A stretch of DNA of 64,000 nucleotides from Lepidurus packardi (Eukaryota > Arthropoda > Branchiopoda > Notostraca > Triopsidae): assembly GCA_023053545.1 (NCBI GenBank), contig JAKZAN010000004.1:2728001-2792000 (forward strand), written 5' to 3'. Positions 5,341-52,853 of this stretch are shown here, piece after piece. The first letter of the stretch is position 1. Each line of letters begins with the position of its first letter. Both the position numbers and the translations under genes were made by a program. Below the pieces are notes generated by a model, which was not told where the DNA came from, did not search any database, and saw only the letters and a list, made by a program, of their open reading frames with translations.

Positions 5341-5433
5341 ACTTTTTTTTCCTTCCTTTTTCTTACGTCAAATATTGTATTACATGCTTTCATCCCGATA
5401 TCCGAATTTCCCGTAGTTTTATTCTTTTTGTAA

Positions 5434-5515
5434 GGTAGCGTGGCCGAGCGGTCTAAGGCGCTGGTTTTAGGCACCAGTCTCTTCGGAGGCGAGGGTTCGA
5501 ATCCCTCCGCTGCCA
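5434..5515 (+). tRNA. tRNA-Leu (anticodon UAG), copy 2
   Basis: Identical in sequence to copy 1 over its 82 bases and followed by a T run. The spacer after it (a T-rich start, then a tcaaatatt-type stretch) is also nearly the same as the spacer after copy 1. This shows that the repeated unit is tRNA plus spacer, with a period of 175 bases. Confidence 0.97.
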
Positions 5516-5606
5516 ACTTTTTTTCTTCCTTTTTCTTACGTCAAATATTATATTACATGCTTTCATCCCGATATGCGAACTTTGCGTAGTTTTATTCTTT
5601 TTGTAA

Positions 5607-5688
5607 GGTAGCGTGGCCGAGCGGTCTAAGGCGCTGGTTTTAGGCACCAGTCTCCTCGGAGGCGAGGGTTCGAATCCCTCCGCTGCCA
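5607..5688 (+). tRNA. tRNA-Leu (anticodon UAG), copy 3
   Basis: Same tRNA as copies 1 and 2 except for one base in the variable arm (ctcctcgg instead of ctcttcgg). It starts 173 bases after copy 2. Its 3' flank is unrelated to the other spacers, so it marks the right edge of the tandem array; the nearest T run is a short tttt about ten bases downstream. Confidence 0.96.
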
Positions 5689-9598: not shown

Positions 9599-12500
9599 TT
9601 ACTCGTGACCTTTACATGCGTCACTGGCTTGCAAGTAGGTCTTGGGACAGTTGGACGCTATTGTGAAGGCTCGAGAAGCTTCAGACGAAGAAATTTCGCA
9701 TCCACTCGGTGCGGTCCATTCAGCCGCAGTTTCCCCGTCGTAATTACCGCATAAACCGCATTGTATTCCTCTATAGGTCTGGTCGGGGAACACCGTAATG
9801 TGCATGCCACTATATTGGATCGTTATCCCGATCACGGGCGCAGTAATAATATAGAATTTGTCCTTTTTACTCACACTAAAAGTTTTCGAATTTAGTTTAA
9901 GCTTTATAGTAATATGGTAGAAAAGGTACCGTAGGCGATAGTATTTCTCTCGGCCTTCGGGGAGAGTATAAGGTGACGCAGATACGTCGACCTCAATACC
10001 GTCAGCTTTGACGGAGTGATCCGACACTCTCCCGGTACTTTCGGGAATTATTTCTATGGTATGCGGTCCAACATAAACTTTCAGACCCTAAAATCCGCAG
10101 TCAAAATCAATTGAAAACAAGGATTAGGGAGTGTTTTCATTACGAAGTCCAAAATTACCAGTTTAACGGTACTGTTGACGTGGCGCCCGAGTACCAAGTA
10201 CGTGGGATTGTCGCTGCAATCACCACTAATGACAGTGTAGCAAGGAGAAAAGGCGTTTGGGTACGTGACGTTGTCGAAGGTGCGGATTTGTTCGCTCGTT
10301 ACGAGGCAGGAAGCTGCAAAAATATGGAATCGTACGGGTTTTTTAGCGCTAAGAAATTGGCAACGTGTGATGTACAGTACGTACGGATACTATCCAATTC
10401 GTACGCGGCTCGCATGGCGTAGCTGAGACGAGAAGAGGGCAAGTACTCTGAAATGAACTTTAAGGTTACTTTTTCGGCGCGGAAGACGTCACCGGCGTAC
10501 GTTATTTCAGCGTTGACTTGATCGTCTGGCTTTACGGATACGTTGAAATTGATGTGTGTGAAAGCGCTTCTGTCTTTGGTACTATTGCCGAGCGTGGCTA
10601 TAACCGTAGGATACATCAACGACAAATAGGCTTTAGCACGTTCAGCCGCGTTAGATAAAACACTGGGTACCTGTTTTTGAAAATAACATAATTCTTGAAA
10701 TAATATTTTTAAAAATTAAAAAATATTAATGCTTAAAAGTTTAAATCGTTTACACTTAAAGCTATTGATTAAGAAGCATCATAAATCCGTTATATCGTAA
10801 AAAAATATATAAAATTCAAAAATGTATCTTTCTACTTTGTTTTTAGGAAAACGGAGACGCGATGTTTGCGGATTCGGCGCAAACTGGGTTCGGCCGGATC
10901 GGCGTGGAACTTACCTCGGCTAGGCGGAGGTCTATGACATAGCCAGTCATTCGGGTGAGTTGTAAAGCGGTTCTGTAGCAGGCTTCGGTCTGGGGAGTCA
11001 CGTAGTTGGCCCATTCGGGGCTAACCCGCTCGGTTCGGCAAGTTCCATATGGCCATTGCTGGCTAGTTTTGTATAGGTTAAACTCTTCTGCACTACTTGT
11101 TGATTTCAGAGCCCCTCTCAGTCGAAAGCCGTTTACAGGACACTGTTCAACAATTGTTGATTGAAAAAGTGCTCCTTAAATTAGACAGATTAGTTACTTG
11201 ATTAGAAAGAGAAGTTGAGTAACCCGCAACTACTTCAAGGTTCCCAATACTGAGACTCGGTGTACTCATATCGCTAACATCTACTAAATCCACTGGCGGA
11301 GTAGGATACGTAATATCTCCTTTCAAACACAGCTAATGAAGGGGCAATCGGGTTAAACTAGTGTAAGCTTTTAATTGCTAAAGGACTTCAATACTTACCA
11401 TGCCAGCGGACATATTCAGAGTGGGAACTGCGTCTAACTTCCATCGAACACTGAAATTGGCTTGGGTCTCTCCACCTTCATATTCGTATACTAGCTCAAA
11501 TTCTGAACGTCGATCCTGGTTTTTCAATTGTCCTTTGAGAAGGATTTCTAAACCAAATGCGATTTTCCCTGATTCCCCGAAAGTACCAGGCGTCTCCGAT
11601 CCTGTTAACTTCAACTTGGCTTTCGCAGAAGCCTTTGCGAAGGTTTTGTACGTATATTTAAACCGTCTTAGAGAAGTGTATCGCGTATTTTACCTCTAGA
11701 GTTGGCAACGTAGCAGTACGTCGTAGTTTGACGTAAGTCCGACAGAACGTGCCTTGCGGTTGGATGAAAAGACTTTCTTGAGTTTCAGCTGCTAGCATAA
11801 AAAGGTTTCGCAAGACATTTGAGCTACAAGAAACAACATTTAGTCATCATCATACAAAATATGGAAATTAAGTTTTACTCTGGATTGGCTTGCATCCACA
11901 TGAAGAGCTGACGAGTGTACCGTTGGGAGTTTCCGGTAACATCGCAGTTCATGGTCTGCAAGGAAAGCTCCGTCCCCAGATATTTAGAATAACCCAATAT
12001 AACTTCACTGGGCTAAATGATAAAGATGGCATGTATATTTTGTTTAAAAAAAAGGAATAGTGAAATACCTTATACGAAATTGGCTTAGGAGATATGAGCT
12101 GGCGGACTGGACAATTCGGGCACGTTTGCATCAACTTCGGATTGGAAGTTCGGGTTACTACTACTGTTTGCCCGCTGGCAAAGATGCCAATAGCATCCGA
12201 TCCTTCACAACAATAAAAAAATTGAGATGGAGAGCAACACAGTGGAAGAGTGAAAAAGTCAACAAGCAAAATAGCAACAATGAAGCTATAAGATGGAGAA
12301 TGTTAAAAGAACAACGGTGAAATCCTAGAAAACGAACAATCAAACTGTTTAGAAGAAAATCAACCAAACTTAGCCCAAACAGCAATGAAACTATTGGAAG
12401 AATAACTGTTAAAACAACTTGAAGCGCCAGACTAAGATTTTGGAAGACAAAAAAGAAACTAGACGGACGATAATGAAATTATGAGAAAAAGTGTACAAAT

Positions 12501-19541: not shown

Positions 19542-20343
19542 TTAACAGATATGTTCAAATGACAAATGCTTAAGTATTATTATGAAGTTAATTCTATGTA
19601 GTAAATCTTGTTAAAAAAAAGTTGATCCTCTCTATAGCAGAGTGTAGGTTTTTTCTCTAACAGCTCTTTTTTGGGTTTGTAAAAACGGTTTACTTTGTAA
19701 GCCAATGTCGTGTTCAATTTTATTAGCTTTGAGGCGACACACGTGTAGACACTTACAGTGTTGCTCCGCGCAGGAATTTCGGATTGCATGCTTATTTAGT
19801 GTTTTGTCGTAGGTACTAATAAGTAAGTGCTACCGAAAATTGTCTATGAAAAGTACCAAACATGATAAGTTCTAATTTGGCTGTATATGATAAAACTTAT
19901 GAAAAAAGTGTATCGCAACCGAAGCGCATAGAACTTAGTTTAGTACGAGGTCTAATGTCCCATGTACATAATGCGCTTAGCATAATGCGTTTATGGGCAT
20001 GTTTGGAAAAAATCGAACGTTTCTAGGTCTTAAGTTATAACGCTTGGCATAACATCAGTGGTGTGCTTTCGTAAACTTACGGCTAGTCAACAAAAGATGA
20101 CTAAGCTCTGATCTATTAAAATAAAACGATTTTTTTACTTCCAAATCCTGTTTGCCACCGAAGATGAGAACTAGTAAACAGGAAAGAAATTATTAAAGGA
20201 ACTGCTCGCTTAAATATGTAGGAACAAAACTGTATTAAGTCTATGAAATACAGCTTTCACGCAGTTTCGCATTATGCTTTCCAGGAACGGCGACCGGAGA
20301 GTTATACAATTTGGAAACGGATTCACAAGAAGAATATAAATTA
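19542..20343. other. Convergent 3' flanks, nothing recognised
   Basis: Spacer between the 3' ends of the ionotropic receptor (plus) and the monocarboxylate transporter (minus). It presumably holds both 3' UTRs. No gene or repeat recognised. Confidence 0.5.
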
Positions 20344-23300
20344 TTATAACTCATTACACACAGTATCTTGCACTTGAACCTCTTTCGTAGGAGGGTTATC
20401 CCCATTGGTCTTTACTGGATCAGTTACTCTATTTCGAAACCCGTTCCCATTTTGTGACACGCGTACTGGGCTTGGATCATTATGTTGCGCACTTTTTTGA
20501 TGAAACAGAGACCATTTTCGTTGCTTTCTGTCTTGGAGTTCCCTTGGTTTGACAAGATTATTCTCGTACTCACTCATCATAAGGTAATTTTCCACCTGTA
20601 AGTTCCAAAAACGTTAAAAATTCTTTCCTCGACACTGAAATGCGAACTATAGAACCTTATCACACGAAGTAATGCAGTCTGCTGCAAACTCCAACTCTTC
20701 TAGCATGTGGTCAGGAATATCCATATCTGCAATTCCCTCTTCAGAGATGCACGTTAATTCGGCAGGCGGTATATCCCCTAACTGAGCGAAGAGAAATGAA
20801 GTTTGCTGGAGAAGGGCCAATGGCGGAGAATAAGGCTCGTCATCGGCAAAAGAATCTTTTCTGATCCGGACCTATTCAAGAAAAAACATGCGCCAAAATA
20901 AGACTATCTTTGGAATACTCATGTTAAATACATCACGTACTTGGCTGGAATGCTGAGATACTGCATCGTCTACTATATTGCCCGAGTAGACAACATCCTG
21001 TCCCGCGGAATTGTTGCCGACAGTTGAATGGCAGGGTTTGTGCCGGGGAATTCTGTTTTTACGACTCCATCTCCACTTCCGCAAGTCGATGAGGAACATT
21101 GTTGCAACCCCAAACAAAATGCACGCGGAACTCAGATAATAACCCTTAAACATTCCACAGCTTATTGCTATGTAACCTACAGTGAAGAAAACGAAGAAAA
21201 AAATAAAAGATACTTAGACAAATCACTATTTTCTTCGGTTGAAGAATCGCTGCAGATCTTTTTACCAGAAAGCGGTATCCCTGCTGCCACAGCCAATCCT
21301 TGAATTCCTTGAACAAAACCCCAGACGCGAGCAAAGTTACGTGCACGCACTGTCTGGTACACAAACATCTTCAGGGTATAATTATACATGCCAAGTCCAA
21401 TCCCATAGGCCCAGACGTGAAAGGTATAATTCGAGTGCTCATGAGTGCCGGTACTAGGAAGTGATATTGACAACGACAGGAGCGATAAACCACAAAGCAG
21501 ACCTCCGGCCTAACATTTTGTAGACAATTCATGTATAAGGTTCCCATATAGCTGAGCTAGTTACACCCACGCCGCCGCAAGGGAGCGCGCAGTTTTTGTA
21601 TGGGTGCATGTACCAAGCTTTCAAAAAAGAAGTTATTTTCCTAATATTTCCTTTGTTACCTGACATAAGTACTGTCTCGCAATTTTACAATCCGGTGGGT
21701 CGGCGACGACGAGCAAGCCTACTATCAAAGTCCCCAAAAGCCACGCTAAACCAAAATATATCTGGAGCCAGACAGCCATATCTCTGCCAACTTCCTTGCC
21801 GGCTTCTTGCGCCTGTGTTTGATAAAAATAAATAACCCACCATAAAAACTGACTGTCTCTTTTCATGGCAACGTTGACACACACCAAATAGATGACTGGG
21901 GTGTATAATCCTGCCGCCACAAAGCCCGCGGAAAGGAGTGTAATTCTCACGGTGCGTGACTTTAACGAAGAAAAGTCAAAGTACGGAGGACGATTGTTTA
22001 TTTTCGTCTTATCTTTTATCTATAAAAAAGGAAGGAGCGAGTTTTTTAACGTTATTTTTTTTAGATTTTTTAACATTATTTTTTTATACTTTTCCCAGGG
22101 GAAAAAACCTTTTACACGACAATAAGTCCAATAAATAACTTAACTTTTTTTCTCTGGTTTTTCAAATGTAAAATGGCTCGTCGTTGTGGGTGATACAAGG
22201 AGGCGGATCGATAGCAAGATCCTAGGAAACAAGGAACCACTAATATGCCAGTAACAGCTTGCAAGCCCAATCTCCATCCCAACATACTATACAAATTTCC
22301 AAGTTTTTTATTCCGTGTCCAGTTTTTTTTTTATTTTTTAAGTCTTTACCCTAGGAGTGTGTGAACAGTTATAGACATGACTGAAATTCCCAATCCGGCT
22401 GCGGCGACCAGTCCAATTTCAACAGCTTCTCTTTTCCGTTTAAAGTACTGGCCGACCATTAGCGTGGCAGCATCTCGGGTCAACCCAACGCCAATACCTA
22501 TGTTAGGACTGGTCACGTAATCCATCATCTTGTTGTCACGCTGTAAAGGCAAACGGGACATACCTACGAAAATCCCATAGCTGAGAAAGACCTGATGAAA
22601 TTCTGCAGCAAAGGACGTAAACAAGAGGCCTAGAGCCGTTAGTAATCCAGCTAAAACGGCCGTCAGTCGTGTGGATTTGTGGCGACAAATGGCCACCGCG
22701 ATAGGGGAAATGAGCAAACTCGTGGCAAGGCACAACCCGGCCAAACTACCTAAAAGGATACAAGAGGGGAAAACAGAATGAAAGGAAATAAGAAATACAA
22801 GAAAATACAGTTGTATACAAGACCCATATAATCTCTACCCAAGCTTCTTGTGTTTTAAGCTATACACCTGTTCCGGCGAAATGTTCACTTTTACAACTTT
22901 TACCCTTTCTCCCTAAACTCCAGATGTACGGAGCTCGAGAAAGGTGTAACTAACACACAACTAGCCTGAAAACTGACTCTTACGATTAACAGGTCAGAAA
23001 AGTGGTACCCTTTGCCTGGACCTTCGTAGGAAGGTTTTTGACTGACAAAAAACAGACTTAGCACATGTTCTTAGACGTTTGAAATCTCTGACTGACCAAT
23101 GACAACGACGAACGACAAAGATTTCAACCTAGTATAACTGTAATTTTGTATGCAGAATACAAAGAGTTCTTGCTCGACGTTGGAACCGTGTACACCATTA
23201 CTGCTCAGTAAAAGCTTTCAACGTAGCAAAGTTCCAAGTTCCGCGATTTAAGCCAAGTTAGATTCCTCTCAGTTGTTCATAAGGTTAATCTAGGGAACTT

Positions 23301-25509
23301 GGGTTTAAATCTGGTCCTCCAACTGAACAAAACCACTCGAGGTGAAAGCAACACAAAAACACGCATAAACAAAAGCAAAAAGACAAGCGTTTTTATTAGA
23401 TCTGTACAATATGTGTATCGTCCTTCATATGTGTCCTTCATACACAATATGTGTATAGTGTATCGTCCTTCCCAATCTGACCAACAACCCAGAGACGATA
23501 GGAAATAACACGAAAGACGGACAAAAGGAATAGTGCAATCACTTTCCAGACGACTGCTTATTTCTGCCCCATTGCTTCGAATCCGACTAAAATGGACTCT
23601 GAAAAAGATTTATTCGGCTAGGACAGAAAATGGTTTAACCCTTTGGTCATCCACTGCAAAAAAAACTTATTTTATTAGAAAATATGGCATTTTTGGGGGG
23701 TCCTTACTCTACACTCCTTACTAAGTTACTTTAAGACTTTTCAGAAAATTATGTTTTCGATTTTACTTTTCTGGTAAGTAATACTTTCAGATTTTGTAGT
23801 TATGTTCCTTTGAAGCGTTTGAATCTTTTACGTCCTCAATGACAGATTTAAGCCCCAAAATGTTTTGGCAGATTGAAACGCGTCTAGTTGTAAAGTCCTT
23901 GTAATCCATGTAAAAATGGGTTGTGTTAAGTCCAGTAAGCTGCATTGCAAAGAATTTTAGTAAACTAATTTTACAATAAATTCGTGTATTTTCCCTTAAC
24001 TTCCTAATTGTATCGCCTAACCCATTTCGATTTTACTACTGTAACATCACAAACACTTTACCAATTTTAGTAGTATCTGTACTATTTCGATGGCATTTCA
24101 AACTATCTTCCAATATCTGTATTTCTAATATAGTATAACTCCTTACTGAATTTGAAAGTTTTAATAAATTTAGGTAAGAGGATATTTAGTCATAAAATAG
24201 CAACTTTTGTTCTTTCATAAGTCCTTAGACTTATCTGAATAATTTTTCACTATTAATCTGGAAATGCGAGTTTTGTATCATATCCTCCGAAAAGTCGTAA
24301 AATCACCCTACCTTTTAATGATGCAGACCTAACTGTGTACACGATAGTTTGAACTTATTTAATAATGAACATCCCGGTAAACATTCCAGCTTTTCATGGG
24401 TTAAGATCTCGGGATTCAAATTCAAGAAACAGTGGACTTGGAACTCAAGTCTTGAGGCCCCAAAGGACATTAGATTCCTCGATAATTCAACTCCCAAAGG
24501 GATTTGTTCTGAACGAAAAGCGAGCGAGGGATTGAAAGCCATTTCTTCCAGTTAAAATGTCAAGTTTTGGGCTATTCAATTTCTCTTGCATTAATAAAAA
24601 AAATTACGTATGCTTTTCATATGATCCGTCCTATCCATTAAAACAGTCAATAAATCTATACAAGGTCATTTTATGTTTGTTTTTTAATAGAGTTATTTAA
24701 CTGTAATCTGAATAGCAATTTGCATTTTTACACTTTGCCTTTAAAATTCTGCATTTGCATCTTTTGCAAGTTTAAAATAGCTTAGTACTAAAACTGCCTA
24801 AAAATCTGTATTTTATATTTCGTTACATTGTGAATTGTAGCTTTTAAAAATATACGAAATTATTGAATATTTAATTCACAATTTATTTACAATTTTTACT
24901 CGCATAGAATTTATTTACATGGATTATGTCATGGTATAATTAGGACGATTTCTTTTTATTGCAGTGTGAACTGCATTAGAAAGGTGAACTTATTGGAAAT
25001 ATATTGTAAGCAATACTCAGTACTATTACAGGTATTACTTAATTCTCGAGGCGCAATGTAAATGACCCGTATATCTCACCCTGGATAGCAGTGGAGGACA
25101 AGGTTGTTGGCAGCGGTTGAATAAGGAGATGGATAGCTATTGCGAACTGCATCCCAATTTCCAAAACCACAGTGAAGGACGCTAGTACCACGATCAGCCA
25201 TCCCCACCCCCCTTCAGGGTAGTAATGTTGACGAATCGTGGCTTGTTTACTATCTTTGAACTTCAAAACAGTGTTTCCGATAGGAGCTACTAACGCTTGT
25301 CGTGGTAGTGTCTTAAGAACACCTTCGAATTCCTGGATAATATTATCCTCTTCATCTCCAAAAACGCCACTTGGATTCCCCATGGGTAAATCGATATCGT
25401 CAAACGAACTATATCTCTGACTCATATTACCAAAGGAATGTTCCTCATTTTCCTCCAGCATTTGCTGACTGTACTTCTGCGAAACAATGCTGCACGAATC
25501 GGGCTCCAT
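20344..25509 (-). CDS. Monocarboxylate transporter (SLC16-like), isoform with first exon C
   Basis: First exon C 25509-25080 plus common exons 22749-22564, 22497-22350, 22286-22145, 22019-21660, 21509-21266, 21176-20941, 20871-20656 and 20595-20344 give 737 residues in frame. This is a major-facilitator carrier of the monocarboxylate transporter type. The acidic N-terminus ends in HYYPEGGWGW, the family's conserved entry to TM1. IGIGVGLTRDA...QYFKRKREAVEIGL (TM4 loop) and GWRLGLQAVTGI follow, then a long charged central loop before KSRTVRITLLSAGF (TM7). TMs 8-12 end near residue 530, and a roughly 200-residue cytoplasmic tail closes the protein. Family members move lactate, pyruvate, ketone bodies or other acids with protons; the substrate here is unknown. 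A 2.3-kb intron separates exon C from the compact body. Two more first exons lie farther upstream. Confidence 0.9.
22750..25079 (-). other. Long first intron of the transporter (after exon C)
   Basis: Intron between first exon C and the common body. It is AT-rich, with a small cluster of short repeats around 23400-23470 (tcgtccttc and gtgtat motifs). I see no extra coding exon in it; the phase of exon C joins exon 2 directly. Confidence 0.6.
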
Positions 25510-28500
25510 GTTCCGAAGCCGTTCAAAAATAGCCGCCTAATTTTTTCTTTGAAACTGTATATAGCTTTTATTTCTAGTACGTTTCTATGAGTTCCTTATG
25601 AGCGTTCGAGCGTGTGAGTTAAAAGTGACGGCAACATGAAATGCGCTAAGTTCCAGTTGGACGGTAGCAGCCAGACGCCATTAAGCAGCACAAGAGGGTC
25701 CTTTGTTGAAAGTCTGGCGTAGTTCGGCGATGTAATCAGTGAAACGCATAGAATGAACGAAAGGGGAAGTTTATGGGAATGCTTATGGGGAGTAGAAGGG
25801 GACGGGACAATGTCTGGAACCAGAAAAAAGTCTCACTATATCCAAAATCACTTCCGCGTCAAAATGGATATTATATTCCTTGTTGTCACTTGTTGACTAT
25901 TGTTGGAAAACAACAAAAACAGGGCACGCAAAGCACTTGCTGTGTTTCGTTCCGTTTCTTCTTAAGTTATAGTGTTCAAACTGTTGAACTGATCCAAACT
26001 AATAGATACATCTGACAGTCATTGCTGATTTAAACCAAATTTTGGTCGACTTTTTCGAGTGTGAAACATTTGGTCTCGGGCATTTCTCTCTCTCTCTCTC
26101 TCTCTTCCCGCGTAAAACTAAAAGACTCGTCTGAACCGTTCGCGTGTGGTGACTGGAGGACTTTTGTAATAGCAAATCAGACTGTTTAGCTTCCCAAAGC
26201 ACAGCTGCGCACGCTACTCGTGCTGGCAGAAATGTCCAGGGAACTCGTCAATTACCTTCAACGTTCAGTGAATAAAAAAGGAAAAAACCTCTTGACAATC
26301 TTGAGTCTACACAAGTCACTTCTATTTAAACAAGTATTTCAATGGAAAGTGTGAGATTTATATTCTTGCAGCAGCAAACAAGAATCTGCACTTCATGAAG
26401 AACGAACGAACAAAAAACTGTTAAGAATTCAACTCGAAGTGTAAAAACTGCTTCCATGTTGAAACGGTAACTTGCATACACAACCTCGCTGAGCTTGTCA
26501 CTCATGCCAAGTCAAGCATACACGCCTTTTGCTTTAGTACCTTTGATAGTCAAAACTAAGCTTAAAAAGCAGCGAGAGGCTCGGACGTGTGTTGTGACTT
26601 GACTACTAAGCGGTGAAATTGTGGTCTATCACTTCATTGAAAACCGCCAACTGGTTATGCAGAAATTTCCGAAAATAATTCCAAGAACAGATATTAACAT
26701 CTCAGACGCATTTCGATGATAATCGGTCTTTATTTATCGAAACAACAGCATATTCCAAATGTGCTTGGCTTATTCCTTGCTTATTCCAAACAATACTTCC
26801 CAAGTAAAGCTGAATCTTCAAGGTAACTTCATGCAAATTAAAGGGCAGTGGCTACCAAAACAGCACATCGACATTTCGCTAGATTCTTGTTAGTTTAGAT
26901 TCATCTAGCAAACCAGGATTACAATTTAAAATGTTTCTGAGGAATCGATAAGTCACGAATCCATGTGACCATACCGTTGTAGTTGATTTATTTAAGGTTC
27001 CCGTATTCCTGAGCTCGGTATAGGCGGTTAGCATGGACAATTTCGGAATAACTTTTTAAGAAAATCAGTGCATTTAAAAAAAATGCTTTGACGGTAATCT
27101 TGCGCTTGCTAACAGGTAGTGTGCAACTAATGCGCAGTTTTTCAAGTGAGTAATAAATTAGCAATATGCAAATGAAGTTTATAACTAAGAGAAATACATT
27201 ACCTAAAAATCTTTCCTTTGGTTATGCACTAGCTGCTAATAAAAGAAAACTTTTGTTTTAGATTGCTTTCAAAATCTGACTAACAAGCCGTTTTCGAGAA
27301 GTCTTGTTCCAAAAGTTTGACTTGGTTTGGGACATTGTGCTGTTACAGCAAATTGTGGAAACAGATGGTAATTTTAGGAAGCAGAACAAGCGTACAAACT
27401 TTGCCGGCAATTAGCTCTCTATTTCTTTTCTCACTTTCTTACGCAAGGCTTTGGCAAAACAACAAACATAAGCGCCGTCTTGGATCTTTCCCATCAGTAA
27501 GCTAAGCTATACGGGAGCCTTAATGCGTTGTTATACTAGTTTGAGCGTGAACTGGAAGACATAAACAATTAACCTGATTCCTTTCTCTATTTTGAGTTGC
27601 AGTTTTTTTCTTGATGACTGCTAGTTTGATTCTGCAGTTTCTCTTAACGCAGTTTTTGCAGATGAAAACAGTTGTAACGTTACAAAGTTTCAGCGTGAAC
27701 CAGAGGAAGTGACGCTGGATTAAGGCTTGTTGTCGTGGTTGTAGTCACTCTCGTTACGTCACGAAGCCATGCGACCAGATTTTTTTTAATTGATTTCCTT
27801 AAAAGCTATATTACTCATCAGTAATCAACTAGATACCCGACTCCTGACTAGATACCCGACCATTTGTAGAAGTTGTTTCTTGCTGGCTACCGCCCTTTAT
27901 GCTTCTATTTGAAATTCTCTCATTCGAAACCCGTTGTACAGTACTATAAAAAATGAATGCCCTCGCCATCTACCGACGTCTTCTGGATCAGCTCATCCTT
28001 TTCTCCTACCCTGAAATAGAATATAACCCCGAGGCAAGCCAGTTGGGGTATTAGGGTTAGCTTTTCAAACCCTTTTCCCCTTCTTGCCTGTTCAGTTACC
28101 ACCACGCTACTTCATACCAAGTCAAGACTTCTTTAATCCAAACGTACTCGCTAAATCGTAACTTAAGCACCAATATCAGTCACGTTATGTCATATGTAGA
28201 CGATTTTCTCCCAAATTCAGGACAACAGATACGAGTCGTGCCAAACTTGTATACAACGTGCACGGAAAATAATAGCGAGTGGTCTTATCTATCCCTGCCA
28301 AAAATTTAGTTATGAGACAGGCCTGAGGTAGGTCAAAAAAAAAAATCCTTGGCGCTGACCCTAAAGCAAGACTTTCGCTAAAGGCTAGGGGACGTAAGCA
28401 ATAAGCGGAGGCGGAGCTTAACACCACGTGCCATTAACGGTGTCCTAGGTCGGTTCTGCGTATCAAACTGCTTAAGCTCTCGGGTAGTTTAATTAAGTTT

Positions 28501-29042
28501 CAAAGTAAAAAAAAAAATCCATAAACGAAATATAGATACGAATAAAAAATGGTCTGACCCCGTTTGGGCGTGGTTCATCTACCCTTTCTGCGTTCAAGTC
28601 TCACTATTGTTTACATTTAGCGAACTAAGTTGGTTATTTCATTGCTAACATCCTCCCCTTACAAATACCGATCAATACTGACGTGGAGTGTATAGACAAG
28701 CTAAAAGCACGTATCGCAAACCAAAGGAGCGCACGTCCTACGCATTTTCTCTCTTTTTTTTCGATGCATTAAAATAGAAAAAAAAGATGCAGGAATTATT
28801 GTCTTCGACCGCTATCTTAGTTTACTTACCTTCTGCATGGTACACTTTCTTTCTTTTTCCTTCCTTTTCTGTTAAAGTCATATGGCGATGAGCCAAGTGG
28901 CAAAAATAAAAGTAAATATATTTGGCCTCTTGAAGGTTGGAAGTGAAAGCTCGCAGGGTTTTTTAAATATAGCAAAAGCAACTAATTCTCGTTTCTTCAC
29001 GGTTTGTGTTCTGTTTTTTTTTTATTTTCTGTTTATTTTTAC
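25510..29042. other. Upstream of exon C / intron of longer isoforms
   Basis: Non-coding sequence that would be intron for isoforms starting at exons A or B and promoter for exon C. It contains a (TC)10 microsatellite at 26085-26105 and a 13-base direct repeat (ctagatacccgac) near 27828-27860. No gene recognised. Confidence 0.5.
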
Positions 29043-29637
29043 CTGACATGAGGGCTAGCTGTTGGCCCATGCTGACATAGCTGGTGGAATTGAGCTGTGT
29101 GACAGGGGATGAAAGGAATGCCAAGTTTGAGACGCTTTTCATCATTTGCTTTTTCGCGACCCGCCGGTTGAACCCGGGCATCAACATTCCGCCATTTAGA
29201 GGCACACTGGCGCTAAACATATGCACCATAGCTGCCGACAAAAGCACACACCACCCCCAGTGGCCTTCCGGGTAGTAATGCAATCGTAGCGTCCTGACTC
29301 GCAACGCTTGATCGAACGGGCGTTTGATTTCATTTACAACTCTTCCTGAAAGAATTTCACGTGGTTCTCGAAACGAGCCAACTTTAACCAAAATACGCTG
29401 CTCGTTCAGCAAGCAAGCGTTCAATTCCAGCTCATGATTCTCACTATCTGAGTAAGCACATCCGCTGCTAAATGAATCAAGCCTCAATTGTCTTTGCAAC
29501 CTGCTTTTGGCGCCCGACGAATGGTCCGCTCCATAAACTTTGTCGTGCTGCTGTTCACCCATTAAAAGGATATCGTCCACGTCGACATTGTCATTCTCGA
29601 TAACTTCGGAGCATTCCAATACACCATCTGCCGCCAT
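29043..29637 (-). CDS. Alternative first coding exon B of the monocarboxylate transporter
   Basis: Exon 29637-29043 begins with ATG (MAADGVLECSEV) and encodes 198 residues plus one base. It has a long acidic and Ser-rich N-terminus, then RLHYYPEGHWGW, TM1 and the loop GGMLMPGFNRR. It ends in tca-g before gtaaaa, leaving phase 1, exactly as exons A and C do. Joined to the common exon at 22749 it gives about 792 residues. It has no following exons of its own before exon C, so I read it as an alternative first exon and not as a separate gene. No transcript data are available to prove this. Confidence 0.75.
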
Positions 29638-32600
29638 CTTGTTATAGTACTCTTTTAAGGGTCAACATCAAAATCACATTAGGAATGTCGTAATCTTGTT
29701 CCATGAAAATCTTCAAGATTTCATTAGAGTTTCATCTGGGTTAAGTACGATTCTGGGCTAACGTATGTTACTTCAACTTAATAGAACAGTTGGCAAGTTT
29801 TGAGAGTGTTAGATAGCGTATAATATGGATTAAAAATCCAGTTTGGTGGGGTTGTGGCTTCACAGTGCTTGGGATGACCTGTGATGGTGCAGAGTGGCTC
29901 AGGTTTTATCAATACATTAGTGATATGGTAAGCAAAAAATAAGAAACTGAACATGGGGTAGGAAAAAACGTAATTTCCGTTGTTACGCCATTAATCTTAG
30001 GCTAAAGGTAAATCAAGCTTCCTCTAGAAAGTAGGGCTTTGTGGGTTTCGGGCGAGGGGAACTCCCTCGTCTCGCAGCGGTAACAGGAACAGGAACTATT
30101 AAATGAAAGTTCAACGTTCAGTTTTAGATGTAGGACAACCATGAGTTTTCCATTTTTTCTCCCAACACATCCTTGCTTCCAAAGAATAAAAAAACAACAG
30201 CACTAACAATCCCAGCTGGTTAACACTTATTTTTTCACACTTAAGAAGAATCGATTCTTTCACTCAACAACTTCAGTTATCCGAACAGTTTAAAAAAACG
30301 CGGCTTGGAGTAACAGCGATAACAGCACCGAAATGCACAGTTGTGAAGCAAGCGAAAGGCTTAGGTCCTACTACTCCGACATTAGAGGATCGACTGGCTT
30401 AGTCAGGGATGCGGCCAGCTATTTAAAAAAAAAAAAGAATCCGAGTCTGCATCACAAATGGCATAAGACGGTGTTGTATGAGAGAAAGAAACACAGGATT
30501 GTAGTTACGAAACAGACGCCAAAAAAGTAACGTCGACAACCTCCGTGAATAATGGCTGGCACGAAATGTAGTCAGTTTCGCACTTGTCACCCGGCTTCAA
30601 ATCGAGTCAATACTTTGGGGAGAGAGAGAACGTGATGAATTTTTGATTTACAGCTGGCTAACGGGTTATAATAATAGTTATAAGGGTTTCATGATGTCTT
30701 TAAAGCTCGCCTCTGTCTTTGAAAGAAACCGCAAGGGTTTTTTTTCTAGTGAGGATGGGGGAATGGATTGTGGTGCTATAAGAATAAATTAAGAGAAATC
30801 GTTTCAAGTTTCAAGGTTAACAATAGTCAAACTTCTTTTCCTTGAGAGGGGACCTAAAAAGAGGCTGGAAAATGGTCAAAGAATGTTTAATGTTTCCAGC
30901 TTCGTTGTATGATCAGCACTTCTTGGGTAATGAAAGCTGGTTTCTGGAACTTGGGCTATCAATTAATGGAACTTCTGTTTTTGCTCTTCAAGAGCTGTGA
31001 GCGTGGGCTGCTCGTTTCCCCGAAAGGACCGCAAGAACTCAATCAGCAAAAAACTTGTTTAGAGATCAAGTTTCGGGATAATAAATGCAGGTGTATACGG
31101 TTAGCAGCTTGGCTTGTAGTTTTTGGTGGGGCAATTAAACATCGGACCGTTTTACAGGTCCAAGAAAACGACACAAAAAGGTAGCCTGGAAGAGTTTTGA
31201 TTGCTGTGTTTTTTTACGGATAAACACTCATAGGTTTAGGATTAGGTACAAAGTATACAGAACAGTGAAACAACAAAACATGTAATGTCTCCATGGAGAC
31301 TTGCTGTTGCTGTAGTTTGGGTGGTTAGACGGAAACGTTCGAATTTTTGTTTCTTTTCTTTTCCTGGTCAAAACCAACAGCGAATCGCGAAACCAAGCTC
31401 CGGCATATAGAGCAAGCAAGCAAGTAAAGTAAATATACAAAGAGATACGAGACACAAAGGAGACACGATAATCATAGGAAAACATTCAGAGTTTATGTCC
31501 AAGACGCTTTACTGTCCACAGTAACAATACAGAATCCTTGCACGACGACAATAAGCGAGACAGTACCTATTGTGTTCCTGGCAATAAAGACTTGAAATGA
31601 GTACAGTGGTTTGAACTCTCTGAAAAAGAAAATGACAAAACAGATTTGGCAACTTAAAAGAGAGGTTCAAGGAAGGTAAATGGAAGAAACGCGTTTTTCC
31701 CCAAAGGAGGCTTCCCAAATAAGTAAAAGCCACCACACGTCAAATTGAAGTTTGACAATATAGCCGATTGATAGTCTTGGTATGCTTTTCAAATGGCTCT
31801 TCGCTATGTTGACGAAATAAACAGGAAAGTTTCTGTCATTGAGATTTACAAATGATGTAAAGTTATCGTTATTCCTTTCTAATGCACTAGAAAGTTACTT
31901 TTGCTCATTTGAAAGCTTATATAAATCAAAATCACAAAAATTGTTGCTTTTTGTTTCTGAAATTGCTCTTAGTTAGTATTTTACTATTATTTCGCATATT
32001 TTCTTGCTTTCCTAACGCTATGATTTGAATAGAATTGTACACTACACTACATGACACTAGATGTCTAACGGTTTATGCGTGATGGACTTTTGAGTTAACA
32101 GTAAAGAAAATGTGTTGCAAACAAAACCGCGATGCGTATTATAGTGGCAAGTGTGACGATTGTAAATCAGGATTGTAAATTTGATCTTGATGCTGATCTT
32201 GATGTAAATTGTTTACATCAAGATCAGCTGTTGCTTCCAAGGCTAGTTCAAGGTTATAAGGTTTATTTATCTGAATGAATTACACAACAACTACTTTCCA
32301 TAAATGGCTGTGTTGACTGCTTCCATGTTGCTTCGACTCCGTTCAATATATTTTGACGTAGCATAAAAAGCTTCATTGCATAATATCCCATACCCAAAAA
32401 CGTGAGAGAAATATAAGTACAGACCTATACATTATTTCTGCGCACTACAAGTGCGGCATCTTTTCGTTACTCCAGATTGAACTAAAATGTGATTTTAGGG
32501 TTATCTTAATTCAGCTTATTTGACGCTTAAATGCGGATAAGTTTGATCGAAGTTCAATTACTGCGAATGGAACATTCTTTTATGGAATCTTAGACGCTTT

Positions 32601-35143
32601 GCAAAAAGTACTATCTTTTGAATATAGGGTATTAGTCCTTTGAAAATAATGATACAGAAAATAAGATGTAATATACAAATAAATTGCTTTATTCGAATAA
32701 CTTTTATATAAAAAGCAATCTTTAAAGATTTTTATGGAGAATGGAAGGGACAAAATACATTGTAGAGAAACACAAATGTTAGATATCGTGCATCGTAAGT
32801 CTGCTTATAGTTTTGTAGTGAATGCATATCAGCTATTATCTGTGCCCGCTGCAATATAGTACTAGATGATTTACGATCCACGCACTAGCATGTTTTAGTA
32901 TGCTAGGGCCTAATGACATTTTAGAAAAAAATGAGGTAGGCCTTTGCTAAGTAATAGTATACTACTTTGTTATAAGGAATGCACGTCAACTATGTTTAGT
33001 GATAAATTTTTTCTCTTCCACTCTGCGTTTAAAGACTAAAGCCTCTGTACACGTTTGCTACTAAGGGATCTTGTGTCACTATGCATAAACTTGTCCCTTT
33101 ACATGTTAAACCTAGAAAGTGGTTCTAAATGGAAGTAAAGTCCAACAGCAGTTATCTTTACAACCATAAGCTTCCTCGTCAATTTTCCAATTTAATAGGG
33201 GCTTGAGCATAACTCGTTGCCTCTTCTTGCTTCCTCGTCAAGCTGTTCAGTTTTCTTTCATGTCAAGCAATATTTCACTCTAATATATGTCATAGGAACA
33301 TAAAGCGGCATTTCTATACACAAGAAATGTAAAGAAACATCAGTTAGTCTACATTTAATTCGTTGAACTTTTCTTTACACTTTTATAATATTTATTATTT
33401 CTAAATTGAAAATTATAAAATAAAATTCCATTTACAGTTTTTTTTATTCAATTGCAAAATGAATTTCGTTTTCTCCTACAACTTTCATATATATATTGCA
33501 ATTTAATTTTTCTCCACCCTTTTTCTAATTCTCTAATTCTCACTCTTTCCAAACTGAAACTTCTAAATTAATTTCATTTACAATTTTTCTTCTTCAATTG
33601 TAAAATTAACTTCGCAACTTTTCGTACAACTTTAATAGCTGTATTATATTAATTAACTAATTATTGGCCGTTTAGAGCAATTCGCCTTCATAATCAGGAT
33701 GGTGTACATTGATGTCCATAAAACCCCAATGAAATCATGTAAAAATATTTCTGTCTTAGTTTACGAGTTTATCTTTCTACTTTTATCATACTACGAAGTT
33801 ATCTTCATATCCATTCTACCTTCATTATAAGTTATTCAAGTAGTTGTAAATAATACAAGCTCTGCATGATCTGCAAGCTCAGCATGATTTGCAAAGCTTA
33901 ATGTTTAACATTGAGCTGCTAAAAGCATCTCAACTCGATTCGTACATGGTTGCACAGCCTCAGAGAGACATGGGATGTAGTATAATCAAGTCAAGTCAAT
34001 CCTGCTCATATGGCTGTCTATTCATAAAGCTCTTGCATCAAAGGCTCAGACTTTTTCTCTCCGTTTAGCAAACTTCAGCAAAAGGCCATTTCGGTTCCAG
34101 GCACAACCCAATTTTGCAAAAAAAAACACGAAAAAAGACGAAAGGCAAATAAAGCTCAAGCCACGTGAATGTAACTGCTTGGCATTGCTATGGAAAAGCA
34201 AATGTTGATTTGCAAGTGCTAGACTACAACTATTGTTGATATGAAAAGGAAAAAATATAAGAAAGCAAGGACTTCGTGGATACGAATCTATGTATCGTGC
34301 AGCTCGTCGTATGTTTTCTTAGGGAAAAGGTGCAGCTTGAAAGCCTCACAGAACGGCTATAAAATGGTGCTTCGGTTTGCAAACTCGGTTTTTCCTGGCA
34401 GCGAGACATTCCAGTATGAGTACTTGTCTGTAATAAACGTCACCCTATAGGAAGGTTTTTGGTGGGGCGGAGGAAGACACTATCGCTTGTCTCCGCTATG
34501 CCTTGATGTCCGTTCTTCACTCAGCATCTCCTGATTATCCTAATGGTCAAAGCCCGGCCTTCCTGGGGTGATGGGGACTCTTCATCCTGTTCCCTCCGTT
34601 GCCTTCCATCCCTTTCAACTTGGTCGAGTCGGCTCTAGTCGAGAGCAACATCCGAAGGAACCCAAGTAAAACCCCATGCTCCCCTTTTATGCTCCTTTTC
34701 CACCATGTCTTTCAAAAGCTTCGACCAGAAGGGAAAGTGTACTTAATAGAGGCGTTTGCCCTCTCAACGTCTGTAACTTTGCCCTCTGCTGAGAAACGGT
34801 TTGAAAGGATGGCGGGAAGAGCGTCATCCTCTCTCTCTCTTTCTCTCTCAAGAGTGAAAATGAGTGTCACTCAATGGGAACTCTCGTCTCCATCCTCCAT
34901 CATCCCGACCCCTCCCCGACTCCTTTACTAACTTAGTTTGAACCTATTCAAATAATTAAACACAAGCCTCAAGGGTTTATTTCATCTCGCACTCCAATTC
35001 ATCAGCTCGGTTAGGCTTGTCGCAGTCAACTAACACCAACACGCATCAGTTTACCCCGAGTGGGTAAGTTTCACCCAGAGCATCACATTAGTTTACCACG
35101 ATTGGAGTGGGGTAAGGAAAGTACAGCAAATAGAGAAGCTTAC
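29638..35143. other. Long intronic or intergenic AT-rich stretch
   Basis: Between alternative first exons B and A. AT-rich with many short open frames but no family signal. It contains a perfect 17-bp inverted repeat at 32192-32228 (listed separately) and a CT-rich stretch near 34830-34850. Nothing else recognised. Confidence 0.5.
32192..32228. repeat. Perfect 17-bp inverted repeat
   Basis: Arms gctgatcttgatgtaaa and its exact complement are separated by ttg. Just before the left arm another partial copy (gatcttgatg) occurs, so the block looks like a small palindrome built from a repeated decamer. Unspliced RNA across it would form a strong hairpin. Possible remnant of a mobile element end. 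Confidence 0.7.
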
Positions 35144-35483
35144 CGGGGGAAAAGAGCGAGTAGTCGACCGCGGGATACTTTGGTCCGGCGAATACCAATA
35201 TATGCATTCCACTTAGCGTCACTCCGACGTTAATCACATGGACCAGTACCGACACCGCACAAATCACCCAGCCCCAGTTGCCTTCAGGATAATAATGTTT
35301 AAATAATGTGAGCGCCGCCCTGGCGAAAGCCAGGTGTCGGTTTCGTTCCCGAGTCGCATCCTTCATTCCACTCACCTCATTAACAAGTTGGGGTGCGTCA
35401 CAATCGACGCTAGTCAATACCGTCACAGGTTCCTGAGCACTACAACAGTCCTGGGTGCCAACAGTCTTATCCTCTGCGACCAT
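35144..35483 (-). CDS. Alternative first coding exon A of the monocarboxylate transporter
   Basis: Exon 35483-35144 starts at the ATG of MVAEDKTVGTQDCC and encodes 113 residues plus one base. It includes FKHYYPEGNWGW, TM1 (VICAVSVLVHVINVGVTLSG) and a short loop, and ends in g before gtaagc. That is phase 1, the same as exons B and C. The open frame extends upstream to 35567, but only through non-ATG codons. Splicing to the common exon at 22749 would give about 707 residues and a 12.4-kb intron. It could be a remnant of a duplicated gene, but the intact frame and donor favour use as an alternative first exon. Confidence 0.7.
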
Positions 35484-38178
35484 CACGACCGCGTCCAGTT
35501 GAATATCCAGTGTGAAGAAGACGAAGTAAGCGAACGAAACCAAACAAACTAAACCGAAGCCAACCACGCGAAACTAAGCGGAAAACGTTGTCACACGAGC
35601 TAAAGCAATTCTAGGACGTAACGGTGCAAAAAATGAGATGCACCAGTAAAAAAGTAAGCCACCATCCCACGTAAGAGCAAAGGGGAACTGAATTATGGCA
35701 AAAGGGACACTGAACAGCCGGGCCGACTCGTCATTGTGGATCGATGGCGAACAACTGCACGGTACCTAAGAAACCATTCCTCAACAGTATGTAGTAGATA
35801 TATAATGGAGGAGACGCGAAGAAGCAGTATAGTTTTCGGGCTCTTTTTAAAGCCGCCAACGCGCTGGCGCATGTGATTGCCAAAACACCTGAAGTGGTCA
35901 AACGTTTGCTACCAATAGGGACACTATCACACTGTCATCGCAGAAAGAAAACTTTTCCCAGCCTGATGACAAACGACCCTCATCCGCCAGCAATTAATGA
36001 CCCCAGATTTTACACTGACGGGTTTGGGATCGTTTAGCCAGTGGCACAGTTGATTAATGCAAATACTCATCATGTGGAGTTTGGGGAGCCCATCATTATA
36101 CAGCCACCGAAACGTAACGTATCTATCAGACGTCAGTCTCACCCATTCACTGCCTCACAACAAACCAATCCAAAGTATTTTTACCAGAACCTATACGAGG
36201 CTTCTTCTGCGGGAAATTAATGCAGTGTTTTTAGGGAAACTCATCCCCGCGGTGACGTAACAGTTCATTGTTCCTCATCAGCGCCACTGCTCTCACAAAT
36301 TCCGCACGTCGAATACTGTGTAATTGATGCACCGTTCGGAAACGCTTAGCGAGATTTCCTAAGGATAGTTAGCGTCAAACCTTGTGTCGATCTGTTACAC
36401 CACAGGGGAAGTTCCATAGAGGCAACTCACGACGTTAGTTTCCAAGTTCCAACTGTTAATGGTGTAGCCTGAGGCGACTGAACCTATGAGCTTCTCGACG
36501 CTTACTACCAGTGTAATCGGAGTGATTACCGAACACAAAAACTGCTGCTCATGTTCTATATACAATGTGAGCGAGACGCCACCTACTCATCATTACAGAG
36601 AAGAAAAACATCCCTTGGAAGGTAAAAAATACAAATAAGTTACAAGAAAAATAACTTACAGATGTTCTATTTATATTCCGAAAAGGGACACAGGGGTTTA
36701 GCAGGGTGGTCGGGGTCAAAGAACATGGTTGACTGAGAGCTTTATAAGAAATTTCTTAGGTCTGAAAAGCCTGGGGGATTTCCCCGTTAAAATAAACTAC
36801 GACGTTGAGGTAAATAAAGGTATAGACAGTTTGTCTGTCAACAATACATCAACACTTGCCAGATATTGCCAGGATGTGGGTTCTTACTTTCACTCTCTTG
36901 TGATGGTGGGTTCAGCTTTTAACTACGCAATCTTTTCCACCCCAATAGGCAGTTAGCCATAACTGTATTGTCGAGTCTCATAACCTTCCTTGGTTCCCTC
37001 TATGGGAACATCTTTATTGTATATGAAGAGGTCAACAGTTACAGACATGCTTTTATCTCTTCATCTACCCCGCATCCACTATACTCACAAACTGTTCTTA
37101 CACCCAAAAAAAAAAAAGAACACAATAGGAACCTCAACATTTTTTCCCACCTTTATTTTGCTCGTTAACTCACAATTTCTGACCAAGATCAGCACCAAGG
37201 CAATTAACACGAAGGCTTGACAGCGTGCTAGAGCCACACCTTCTGTCTTTGTCTACGTCACGGCTCTTGTGGCGGGAAAGAGGCAACGATGTACACTTCA
37301 GTAACACGAGAACGGCTTTTCGGAAACATGTGAAACCAAATGCGTAAGCTTGAGAAGGTTCAGATAAAATAGACAGTAATAGAAAAAGCAGCTGCAGAAC
37401 AAGAGTTTCTGAAAAAAACGCTACCTCCTGGCATAATCCAGCAGTAAAATAGTTTTTAAAATTTTAGATTTTTATTTAATTCGGTAAAATCATTTAATTT
37501 CACGAATTCGGGGTTATCGTTTCTCGAGTTATTAGCTTATCAAACAAGTTATCATAAAAAGTTGATTACCAATGATTACGCAGTTTTTTAAGTTTTTTTT
37601 TTTTTTAGTTTTTAGCTACATCAACGGTTCTTTAGCTCTCCAGGTCCATTTTAGCGTGGTATTTCATAAGGATAATCTCGATTTTCGTTCAAATTACGGA
37701 ACGTTTAATTCACTATCATTGGATGACATTGTTTTTCTTTCAGAATCCTGGTATCGTAGTCTATGTCGGTGTTTTCCTTCGATCCAAGAATGAAGCGCCG
37801 TTTCGCTTTGTTTCCGAGTTCTGGGGAAAGCAACAATGAAAGGTCGTGGTCGTGTTTAGTTTACTTATAGAATATAATGCTGTGAATCACCTCCAACAGA
37901 ATATGACAGTGTATAATACAGTGATGAAAAAAGCCCATGTTCCAGTGGCAAGATACAAATACGGCCAGTAATCTTCTGAAGAAATAAACATCGATTAATG
38001 TATGCTATAAACGATACCAAAAGCCTTAAGGTCCAGTTGTGAACCTTGGGAATTGTTAATAGAAAAGGTAGTCTTCAGTACGCGGTCTTGTTTTGTGAGC
38101 CGTCCATATAGCCAAATATTAATTTATTTTTAATAATAATAACTGTGCACTTAAACCAACTTACGGAATTTTCGAGGA
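35484..38178. other. Intergenic upstream of exon A, nothing recognised
   Basis: Probable promoter and upstream region of transporter exon A, then AT-rich spacer. No coding exon, RNA gene or clear repeat seen. Confidence 0.5.
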
Positions 38179-40836: not shown

Positions 40837-45341
<4,505 letters not shown>

Positions 45342-47571: not shown

Positions 47572-48879
47572 TTAGTAAGCTGGGGCAGGCTGGTGTTTGG
47601 GAGCAACAGGTGCAGGACGGTGGTACATGGGAGCTTGATATTTAGGGGTTTCAACGTGAGGAGCTACGTATTTAGGAGTTTCCATTCGGGGAGCTTCATA
47701 CCTGGGTGTTTCAAGGCGGGGAGCTACATGTTTAGGAGTTTCAACTCGTGGAGCTTCATATTTAGGTGCTTCAACCCGCGGAGCTACGTACTTAGGAACT
47801 TCGTATTTAGGCGTTTCCATTCGTGGAGTTTCGTATCTGGGTGTTTCCATTCGTGGAGCTTCATACTTAGGCGTTTCAACTTGAGGAGCTACGTATTTAG
47901 GAGTTTCCATTCGGGGAGCTTCATACCTGGGTGTTTCAACTCGTGGAGCTACATATTTAGGAGTTTCCATTCGGGGAGCTTCATACCTGGGTGTTTCAGC
48001 TCGTGGAGCTACATATTTAGGAGTTTCAACCCGCGGAGCTACATACTTAGGAACTTCGTATTTAGGCGTTTCCAGTCGTGGAGTTTCGTATCTGGGTGTT
48101 TCCATTCGTGGAACTTCATACCTAGGCGTTTCAACTCGGGGAGCTACGTACTTAGAAGCTTCATATTTAGGGGTTTCAACTCTTGGAGCTACGTATTTCG
48201 GCGTTTCTGTTCGTGGAGCTTCGTATTTAGGCGTTTCTACCCGTGGAGCTTCATACCTAGGCGTTTCAACCCGGGGAGCTTCGTATTTGGGTTTTTCTGT
48301 TCGGGGAGTTTCATATTTAGGTGTTTCAACTCGGGGAGTTTCGTATTTAGGAGCAGAATAAGAAGTCATGCTAGATGCAGTATGAGCAGCACCGCCATAC
48401 AATTGTTCGAAGGAGAGTTTAGGGAGAGAGGGCAGCATGGCAGCAATTTCGGCCGGTACTGGAGGAGGAGTTGGCAAATGGTCTCCCACTGGCCTGTATC
48501 CGTTTTCGTCGGCAACCCAGGACATGGAGAACTGTTGACCGTCAGGTGATGTCCAGTGGGTTGCTCCTTCGTTAACAGTGCCGGTTCCCTCGCCAACAAG
48601 CTTCTGGGACTGAATTTCTTCTCGGTGTACGCTATCAGAGCTGTCGAAACTGTTGAATCAGAGATATAGAAGTTTTAGAAATTTCCTTTTTTTAAAGAAA
48701 AATTTTTAAAAAGCGTTGAAGTTAAGCTTAGGTTACCTGAAGCTGGAGCTGCCGTCCAAGTTGCGGATATCAGATTGATACTGGATTGTAGCTCTGTCGG
48801 ATTCTACTTTCACTGGACCGTAACGGACCGTTCCAGCTGCAGCAACAGCCAAAAAGGCAGCGAGAATGAAGAACTTCAT
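47572..48879 (-). CDS. RR-1 cuticle protein with long proline-rich decapeptide repeat tail (gene A)
   Basis: Exons 48879-48737 and 48649-47572 join to 406 residues. MKFFILAAFLAVAAAGT is the signal peptide; cleavage is probably after AAAG. Residues about 35-120 form the chitin-binding Rebers-Riddiford domain of the RR-1 type, with the core WVADENGYRPVGDHLPTPPP. From about residue 150 to 385 the protein is a run of degenerate ten-residue units of the form P-K/R-Y-E/V-A-P-R-V/M-E-T, about two dozen of them, ending APAPAY-like. Such proteins are secreted by epidermis and bind chitin in the exoskeleton. The tail is much longer than in the neighbouring paralogs. The plus strand opposite the repeat is also open, which is a by-product of the repeat. 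A TATA box lies at 48971-48978. Confidence 0.92.
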
Positions 48880-48970
48880 TTTTGACTCAGTAGCCTACTG
48901 TTGACAGTGAGCGAGCTAGTTGATTGAGAGATGCGAGTGTTGAAGTGAACTTTGGACTTCCATTGCAGTC

Positions 48971-48978
48971 CTTTTATA
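48971..48978 (-). promoter_or_regulatory. TATA box of cuticle gene A
   Basis: Minus strand reads agtataaaaggactgcaa, about 95 bases upstream of the start codon. The same arrangement, TATAAAAGG then a short spacer and a TGCAA or similar, stands before the other cuticle genes of the cluster. Confidence 0.6.
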
Positions 48979-48979
48979 C

Positions 48980-49939
48980 TACTTTTGCAATCCTTTTAAA
49001 CTCTTGTCAACGGACTGTGCCTTAGCCAAAAAAATTACTTCTTTACGTACTTCCCCTTTCTCTTTTAATCTCTCTACCTCTCGCTTTCCCTTTGACCTAG
49101 TGTTCTGCTTTCGACCTTAGGGGGAGAGTACCAATATCGACGAGGCACTTGCGGATGGGTGTACATAAAATGCGGTGCATCGATACCCCTAAGTTTCGAT
49201 CTATGTCAAGGACAAGGTTATCTTGCAATAAATATTGCTGTTTTTCAGTTTGGAACAGTTTTAAATATGCGTATGTTCATCTCAAAGACGAAACGCGTGG
49301 GGCTTGAGCGAGTAGATTCAAATGATGAGCCAAAGCAGGCACTGCTGTTTTATAAAAAAAAAGTATTATGTGTTTTGCGATTATATGGCGGAATACTAGC
49401 CATGTTTGATTGACACATCGCACTCTCAGTGTTTAAAAGCTTTAGAATGAGTTCTGTTTGCCTCGCTTTGTTATAGGTTTCTAAGATATTTTGTTTTCAC
49501 CGTGCTGTAACTATTCAATTATGAATTTAATTATGAATTAACTTAATTATGCAAGAATTAAGCAGTGTACAGAGCTTATTGAAGACTATGTACTTGGGAT
49601 AAATACGTAATCTGGCGTACTAACCCTAAACTGAACACTTGTTAACTTTCAATGTTATGAAAGTATACTCCTATTAGACTTATTCTTATTAGAGCGAATA
49701 GGTTTGAGTTCGTTTTTGAATAATGATACTTATGGGTATTTTAGAATGAGATTTTGTTTAAGTTAATTTCTATTGATGAATTACGATAAATTTGTTCGTG
49801 GTGGTCCTGGATAGCTGTAAGTAGTATCATTTACATTTAAAGTCATCTAGTAAACTACAAAAGTCTAATTTGATCTAGATTTGTGTATTGTCGTTTTGTA
49901 CTAAAAAAATATAATTTGCTGGTTAGGCAAGGGAGTATT
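48980..49939. other. Intergenic, nothing recognised
   Basis: Upstream of cuticle gene A and 3' of the frameshifted copy B. AT-rich with short open frames only. Confidence 0.5.
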
Positions 49940-50524
49940 TTAGTAAGAGGGCTTGTGATCCTTGTGCGTATGTACTGAAACAATAGGTGCTTCGTACTTT
50001 GGCGCAGCATAAGCAGCAGTACCGTACGATTGTTCGTTGGAGTGCTTACGCAGAGTCTGTAGCATGGCAGCAATCTCGGTAGGAACTGGAGGAGGAGTGG
50101 GGAGATGGTCTCCTGTGGGTTGGAATCCGTTCTCGTCAGCGACCCAGGATATGGACATCTTCTGGCCGTCAGGAGCAACCCATTGAGTGGATCCCTTGCT
50201 GACAGTGCCGTATTCTTTGCCGATTTGCTTTTGCGGCAGAGCTTCTTCTCGGTTGATGGAATCCGAGCTGGCGAAACTGTCACGTCGAAGAACAAACCAA
50301 CTTGTAGTGAAAGCAAATACTTGTCAGAACAAGGGAAATAGTTTCAACTTACCTAAAGCTTGAACTGCCGTCCTGGTTGCGAACATCGGACTGGCTCAAG
50401 ATGGTAGCATGCTCGGCTTCTCTTCGACCGGCGCCGTAAGGGAGCGCTTGCGTTTGAGCGGGACCGTAAGGGATGGTTCCAGCTGCAGCTACTGCCAAGA
50501 GGGCGGCAAGAATGAAAACTTCAT
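49940..50524 (-). pseudogene. RR-1 cuticle gene copy B with frameshift in the signal peptide
   Basis: Two exons, 50524-50353 and 50276-49940, match the intact paralogs in splice sites and in the RR-1 domain (SWVADENGFQPTGDHLPTPP). The start reads atgaagttttcattc where intact copies read atgaagtttttcattc, so one T is missing after codon 2-3 and the natural ATG runs into a stop within about twelve codons. The rest of the frame is open through FILAALLAVAAAG to the end, HKDHKPSY, and the TATA box at 50593-50601 is intact. No upstream in-frame ATG gives a plausible signal peptide. It is either a very young pseudogene, a polymorphic null allele or an assembly error. The C-terminal tail is also shorter than in genes D, E and F. 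Confidence 0.8.
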
Positions 50525-50692
50525 GTTGAATCGGTGCTCCTAGCAGTGGAAGGATGCAAGTGTTAGACTGAAGTTTCCCTTTCGTTGCAGGCCTTTTTAT
50601 ACTTGACTTGTGCATGCATGTGTGCTTTGACTGAAGGGGAGATAGCCCTTTCATTCCGAACCAGGTCAAGATCAACGTGAGCTGATCTTTGG

Positions 50693-52846: not shown

Positions 52847-52853
52847 CTTGACT

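Follow-up and report, generated by a model that had tools for sequence, protein, structure and literature searches.

An SLC16-like transporter gene with three candidate alternative first coding exons in Lepidurus packardi

Introduction

More than three thousand human genes have multiple first exons, and highly similar first exons are reported to be confined to the PCDH and GCNT2 clusters (PMC1885805). The GCNT2 (IGnT) cluster has three variable first exons, each with its own promoter, and two constant exons (PMC1885805). Here we describe a comparable arrangement in a window of 64,000 nucleotides from the notostracan Lepidurus packardi (assembly GCA_023053545.1, contig JAKZAN010000004.1, positions 2,728,001 to 2,792,000), where a transporter gene of the SLC16/monocarboxylate transporter (MCT) type has three candidate first coding exons, termed A, B and C. 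Each encodes an N-terminal tail and the first transmembrane helix (TM1).

The closest likeness is to GCNT2, in which three tandem first exons code for an N-terminus with a membrane segment and are spliced separately to one constant set. GCNT2 belongs to a different protein family, however, and the Lepidurus first exons have diverged beyond a common motif and are known from sequence alone. In UGT1 and UGT2A the variable first exon likewise provides the N-terminal part of the protein and the constant exons provide the rest, but these genes encode enzymes rather than carriers and are termed vertebrate-specific (PMC1885805). Among transporters, LdAAP24 of Leishmania has natural N-tail variants that differ in substrate range; unlike the situation proposed here, the tails differ by 18 residues in length through alternative trans-splicing, and TM1 is not swapped (PMC4637868). 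The genomic arrangement is therefore already known, from UGT1, GCNT2 and the protocadherins, but the position of the variable part is unusual. In a literature search that lacked most subscription journals, none of the matches listed describes an SLC16 gene whose TM1 is encoded by alternative first exons.

Gene organization

The locus probably represents one SLC16-like gene whose coding sequence can begin with any of three alternative first exons, and each of these probably has its own promoter. The gene is on the minus strand and consists of a single body of nine exons (22749-20344) and the three candidate first exons (Table 1). When A, B or C is joined to the body at 22749, the reading frame is unbroken through the nine exons to the stop at 20344. 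Joining A gives a protein of 683 residues, B one of 768 and C one of 713, with no internal stops. GT donors and AG acceptors are present at all eight body introns, and an AG also stands at the shared acceptor before b1. The introns that would link the first exons to the body are 12.4 kb (A), 6.3 kb (B) and 2.3 kb (C) in length.

A tblastn search of the window with the three isoforms finds the body once, the first exons match one another, and there is no second body in the whole window, the rest of the matches having E values of 0.68 or worse. A and B are without a recognisable body of their own within the window. The initial annotation of this DNA had placed the three exons where they are listed in Table 1, each running from an ATG to one base into a codon before GT, and had held that a single body takes this phase at 22749 and that no further body exons lie between the three; all of this is borne out by the joined frames and the search. 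The locus shares with multiple-variable-first-exon genes a tandem of first exons, each with its own ATG and a donor of the same phase, before one constant set.

The predicted convergence of the three exons on HYYPEGxWGW followed by TM1 also holds, in that the motif is present in all three. The variable N-terminal stretch, put earlier at 80-150 residues, has to be corrected to between 62 (A) and 119 (B) residues before HYYPEG. The variable residue of the motif is G in C, N in A and H in B. From HYYPEG to the junction there are 51 residues in A, 49 in C and 79 in B; the additional length of about 30 residues in B is accompanied by an NSTS sequon between TM1 and the junction.

Conservation of the motif and of the splice donors

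A 30-base pattern for HYYPEGxWGW, searched with up to three mismatches, has three matches in the window, all with no mismatch, and none in 100 shuffles. Across the 108.6-Mb assembly, the 27-base pattern for YYPEGxWGW matches exactly at three sites, none of them outside this locus; in the paralog described below an intron interrupts the motif, so that this pattern could not detect it. Nine of the ten motif codons encode an identical residue in A, B and C, and five of these differ at the third base. Third-base differences with retention of the motif residues are as expected of constraint at the protein level.

The donors of A, B and C each agree with the consensus at seven of nine positions, and the eight body donors at five to seven. 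On the minus strand of 20000-35600, 24 of 914 GT sites score at least 7/9, with the A, B and C donors included in the 24. Frames, motif, single body and donors together give good support to the anatomy proposed initially, in which the three first exons can take each other's place before a single transporter body. The existence of three promoters, and the transcription of A and B with splicing to 22749, are what we infer beyond this.

Relationship to monocarboxylate transporters

By sequence, the body is SLC16/MCT-like. For each of the three isoforms, all 12 PDB matches are to MCT1, MCT2, MCT8 or MCT10. MCT2 is the top match, with E values of 1.2e-23 for isoform C, which is the best, 3.5e-20 for A and 1.4e-17 for B, the last mainly via the shared body; for isoform A the ranking continues with MCT8, MCT10 and MCT1. 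The alignment spans nearly the entire membrane part for A and C. Isoform C in full matches MFS_1 (PF07690) with an E value of 8.1e-15 (55 bits, cut-off 33.4). A [D/E]G-x-W-G-W motif before TM1 is typical of the SLC16/MCT group. PEGxWGW before TM1 and membership in the major facilitator superfamily are accordingly shared with MCT1, 2, 8 and 10.

The locus differs at residues known from MCT1. TM1 of human MCT1 carries the substrate-binding Lys38. Lys38, Asp309 and Arg313 of MCT1 are termed essential, although Lys38 mutants still work at strongly acidic pH (PMC9982067). In the MCT2 alignments, with MCT1 numbering transferred to MCT2 positions by ourselves, Asp309 and Arg313 are replaced by Trp and Thr in the shared body; the Lys38 position has Phe in C and His in A, the latter uncertain because of a four-residue gap, and is unaligned in B. 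The residues that mark proton-coupled lactate transporters of the MCT1-4 type are thus absent from these alignments, and with Trp/Thr and Phe/His at these positions, MCT1-type proton-coupled lactate transport is not expected.

A paralog and the age of the first exons

One clear paralog of the body, with a single start, lies on this contig at a distance of about 1.06 Mb (contig C3, 3827869-3837078) and has six scored stretches of 39-76% identity. A motif scan, which would miss a motif-less exon, finds one TM1 exon at the paralog in 37,000 bases. This exon ends at the same place and in the same phase as A, B and C. The paralog has an intron inside PE/GG, which puts HYYPE and GGWGW on separate exons; A, B and C are without this intron. 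Searching the assembly with the body gives eight weaker matches elsewhere in the genome, and in five of the seven loci fetched around such matches there is a DGG[W/F/Y]GW exon; these five look like other transporters of the group. Outside this genome no relatives were confirmed when exon B was compared with viral contigs and part of the body with bacterial and archaeal contigs, an outcome to be expected when a eukaryotic gene is sought where eukaryotes are not represented.

The first exons were compared without gaps over 43 columns, 33 of which are outside the ten-residue motif, with P values from shuffles. C and the paralog are identical at 13 of the 33 positions, a value reached by none of 20,000 shuffles, followed by B and the paralog with 9/33 (P 0.0003) and A and the paralog with 6/33 (P 0.09). 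A and B share 7/33 (P 0.012). Compared as DNA over about 2 kb each, the regions of the three exons match around the motif and in a few short stretches besides. The ungapped identities outside the motif give no support to a recent origin of A, B and C by copying from one another. With C closest to the paralog and both A and B further removed from it, the default start would seem to be C. In the simplest reading of these sequences, C has been conserved in that role, A and B being old alternative starts which either split off before the paralog or evolved faster.

Are A and B functional first exons?

The open frames are 113 (A), 198 (B) and 143 (C) codons long, and the chance of such open lengths, given the frame and the local non-coding composition, is 1.3e-3, 8.6e-6 and 2.2e-4, respectively. 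Codon scores of A and B range from 0.096 to 0.195 bits per codon. Five 100-codon segments of the body span -0.06 to 0.14; A and B fall inside this span or exceed it, and they also exceed the average of -0.14 for 75 open runs from non-coding DNA.

Several observations weigh against three working first exons. The codon test is weak. Most of the DNA from which the control runs were taken also served to train its background. In the tail of A, the alternative frames score 0.145 and 0.194, as high as its own frame (0.150). The tail of B scores 0.096 and that of C 0.059; both are in the upper range of the 75 non-coding runs and below the best of these (0.118). Outside the motif, identity is at the level of shuffles for A and C (5/33, P 0.17) and for B and C (3/33, P 0.40), so that it is mainly the motif, the position and the phase that speak for A and B being homologous to C. 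Taken alone, none of the three exons has a Pfam family, B having one spurious match (E 0.22). TM1 hydrophobicity is lowest in B (1.60 versus 2.11-2.15 for A and C), and TM1 of B hardly aligns with MCT2 (3.0 bits only). The leader of B has six ATGs in 300 nucleotides versus three each for A and C. Promoter motifs are weak and non-discriminating: TCAKTY initiator-like sites occur twice per 800 nucleotides upstream of each exon (2.5 versus 1.68 per kb in introns), which is uninformative, and TATAWA is found upstream of A (-321) and C (-54) only, not B.

Some of these points would fit with A and B being remnants of tandem duplications whose bodies were lost, with C alone in use. Such an origin, which we consider unlikely, would account for the close resemblance of C but not of A or B to the paralog, the chance-level identity of A and B to C, the poor TM1 of B, and the lack of promoter evidence from the core motifs scanned. 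On the other hand, the open frames, good donors and motif with third-base changes argue against recent relics, and the tblastn search shows no trace of lost bodies in the window. Moreover, if A and B predate the split from the paralog, they have stayed open while the body of the paralog fell to its present identity.

Another explanation, compatible with the core of the three-first-exon reading, is that 5' cassettes are alternatively spliced in transcripts from a single upstream promoter. Acceptor-like sites are seen by eye just upstream of the ATG of C (aaaaaattag/gcggct) and of B (acccttaaaag/agtact), splicing of A to the site before B would be in frame, and the uninformative core-promoter motifs leave room for this. 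It is nonetheless rather improbable, as every exon has its own ATG, splicing of A to the site before C meets a stop (again by eye), and an in-frame joining of A and B would put two TM1 segments into one protein. It is very improbable that transcripts of A and/or B end early or join other exons to give short tail-plus-TM1 proteins: the introns to the body are long for A and B compared with C, and the unspliced frames stay open past the donor for 18 (A) and 26 (B) codons, but the matching position and phase of the three donors would be hard to explain if such proteins stood alone.

Positions of the exons and neighbouring features

Table 1. Exons of the transporter gene and their positions in the window
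Feature	Positions	Strand	Basis
Candidate first exon A: 62-residue tail, HYYPEGNWGW, TM1, phase-1 donor CCCG/gtaagc	35144..35483	-	
Candidate first exon B: 119-residue tail, HYYPEGHWGW, TM1, phase-1 donor TCAG/gtaaaa	29043..29637	-	
First exon C, probable default: 94-residue tail, HYYPEGGWGW, TM1, phase-1 donor CAGG/gtgaga	25080..25509	-	
Body exon b1, common acceptor for A, B and C	22564..22749	-	joined reading frame
Body exon b2	22350..22497	-	joined reading frame
Body exon b3	22145..22286	-	joined reading frame
Body exon b4	21885..22019	-	joined reading frame
Body exon b5, with Trp/Thr at the positions equated with MCT1 Asp309/Arg313	21660..21812	-	frame and MCT2 alignment
Body exon b6	21266..21509	-	joined reading frame
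Body exon b7	20941..21176	-	joined reading frame
Body exon b8, C-terminal tail	20656..20871	-	joined reading frame
Body exon b9, stop TAA	20344..20595	-	joined reading frame

Upstream of exon A there is a neighbouring gene on the minus strand (about 40857-44439), which we take to resemble CDC5L; the one exon checked has no Pfam match. Five cuticle-protein-like open frames with a common VADENG stretch are found at 47572-61902 (minus strand), and the sole frame tested (61402-61902) matches Chitin_bind_4 with an E value of 1.7e-14, which by itself supports an arthropod and nothing narrower, such as a crustacean. On the other side of the gene are exons that resemble a sodium:neurotransmitter symporter (2111-3424, minus strand; the tested part, 2111-2485, matches PF00209, E 2e-27), a tandem of three tRNA-Leu genes of 82 bases each with anticodon TAG (5259-5688, plus strand; ARAGORN with bacterial settings) and an exon with a von Willebrand type D domain (9599-10087, minus strand; PF00094, E 8.6e-12). 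Elsewhere in the assembly, the high-numbered contigs C53, C197 and C245 have full-length major-facilitator genes in a single uninterrupted frame, and these may be bacterial sequence.

Proposed use of the first exons

If the gene has three alternative first exons, the analogy with UGT1 and GCNT2 (PMC1885805) would predict a separate promoter for each start. In a transcript from A, B or C, the first donor would pair with the common acceptor at 22749, and splicing would remove any other first exon lying in between as part of the intron. The resulting proteins would be identical from TM2 to the C-terminal tail and would differ in the cytoplasmic N-tail, TM1 and the TM1-TM2 loop. The N-terminus of MCTs is cytoplasmic, and if this is also the case here, the TM1-TM2 loop would be outside the cell. 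By analogy, a swap of helix and tail may alter transport, targeting, partner binding or substrate. A more speculative possibility, which we put forward only tentatively, is that promoter choice exchanges the substrate-contacting TM1, giving three carriers that have TM2-TM12 in common and differ in substrate or partner preference by tissue or state.

Should all three starts be in use, the locus would offer a naturally occurring helix swap in a carrier of the SLC16 type, in which TM1 is varied and the rest is held constant. The contribution of TM1 and the tail to substrate choice and targeting would then be directly addressable.
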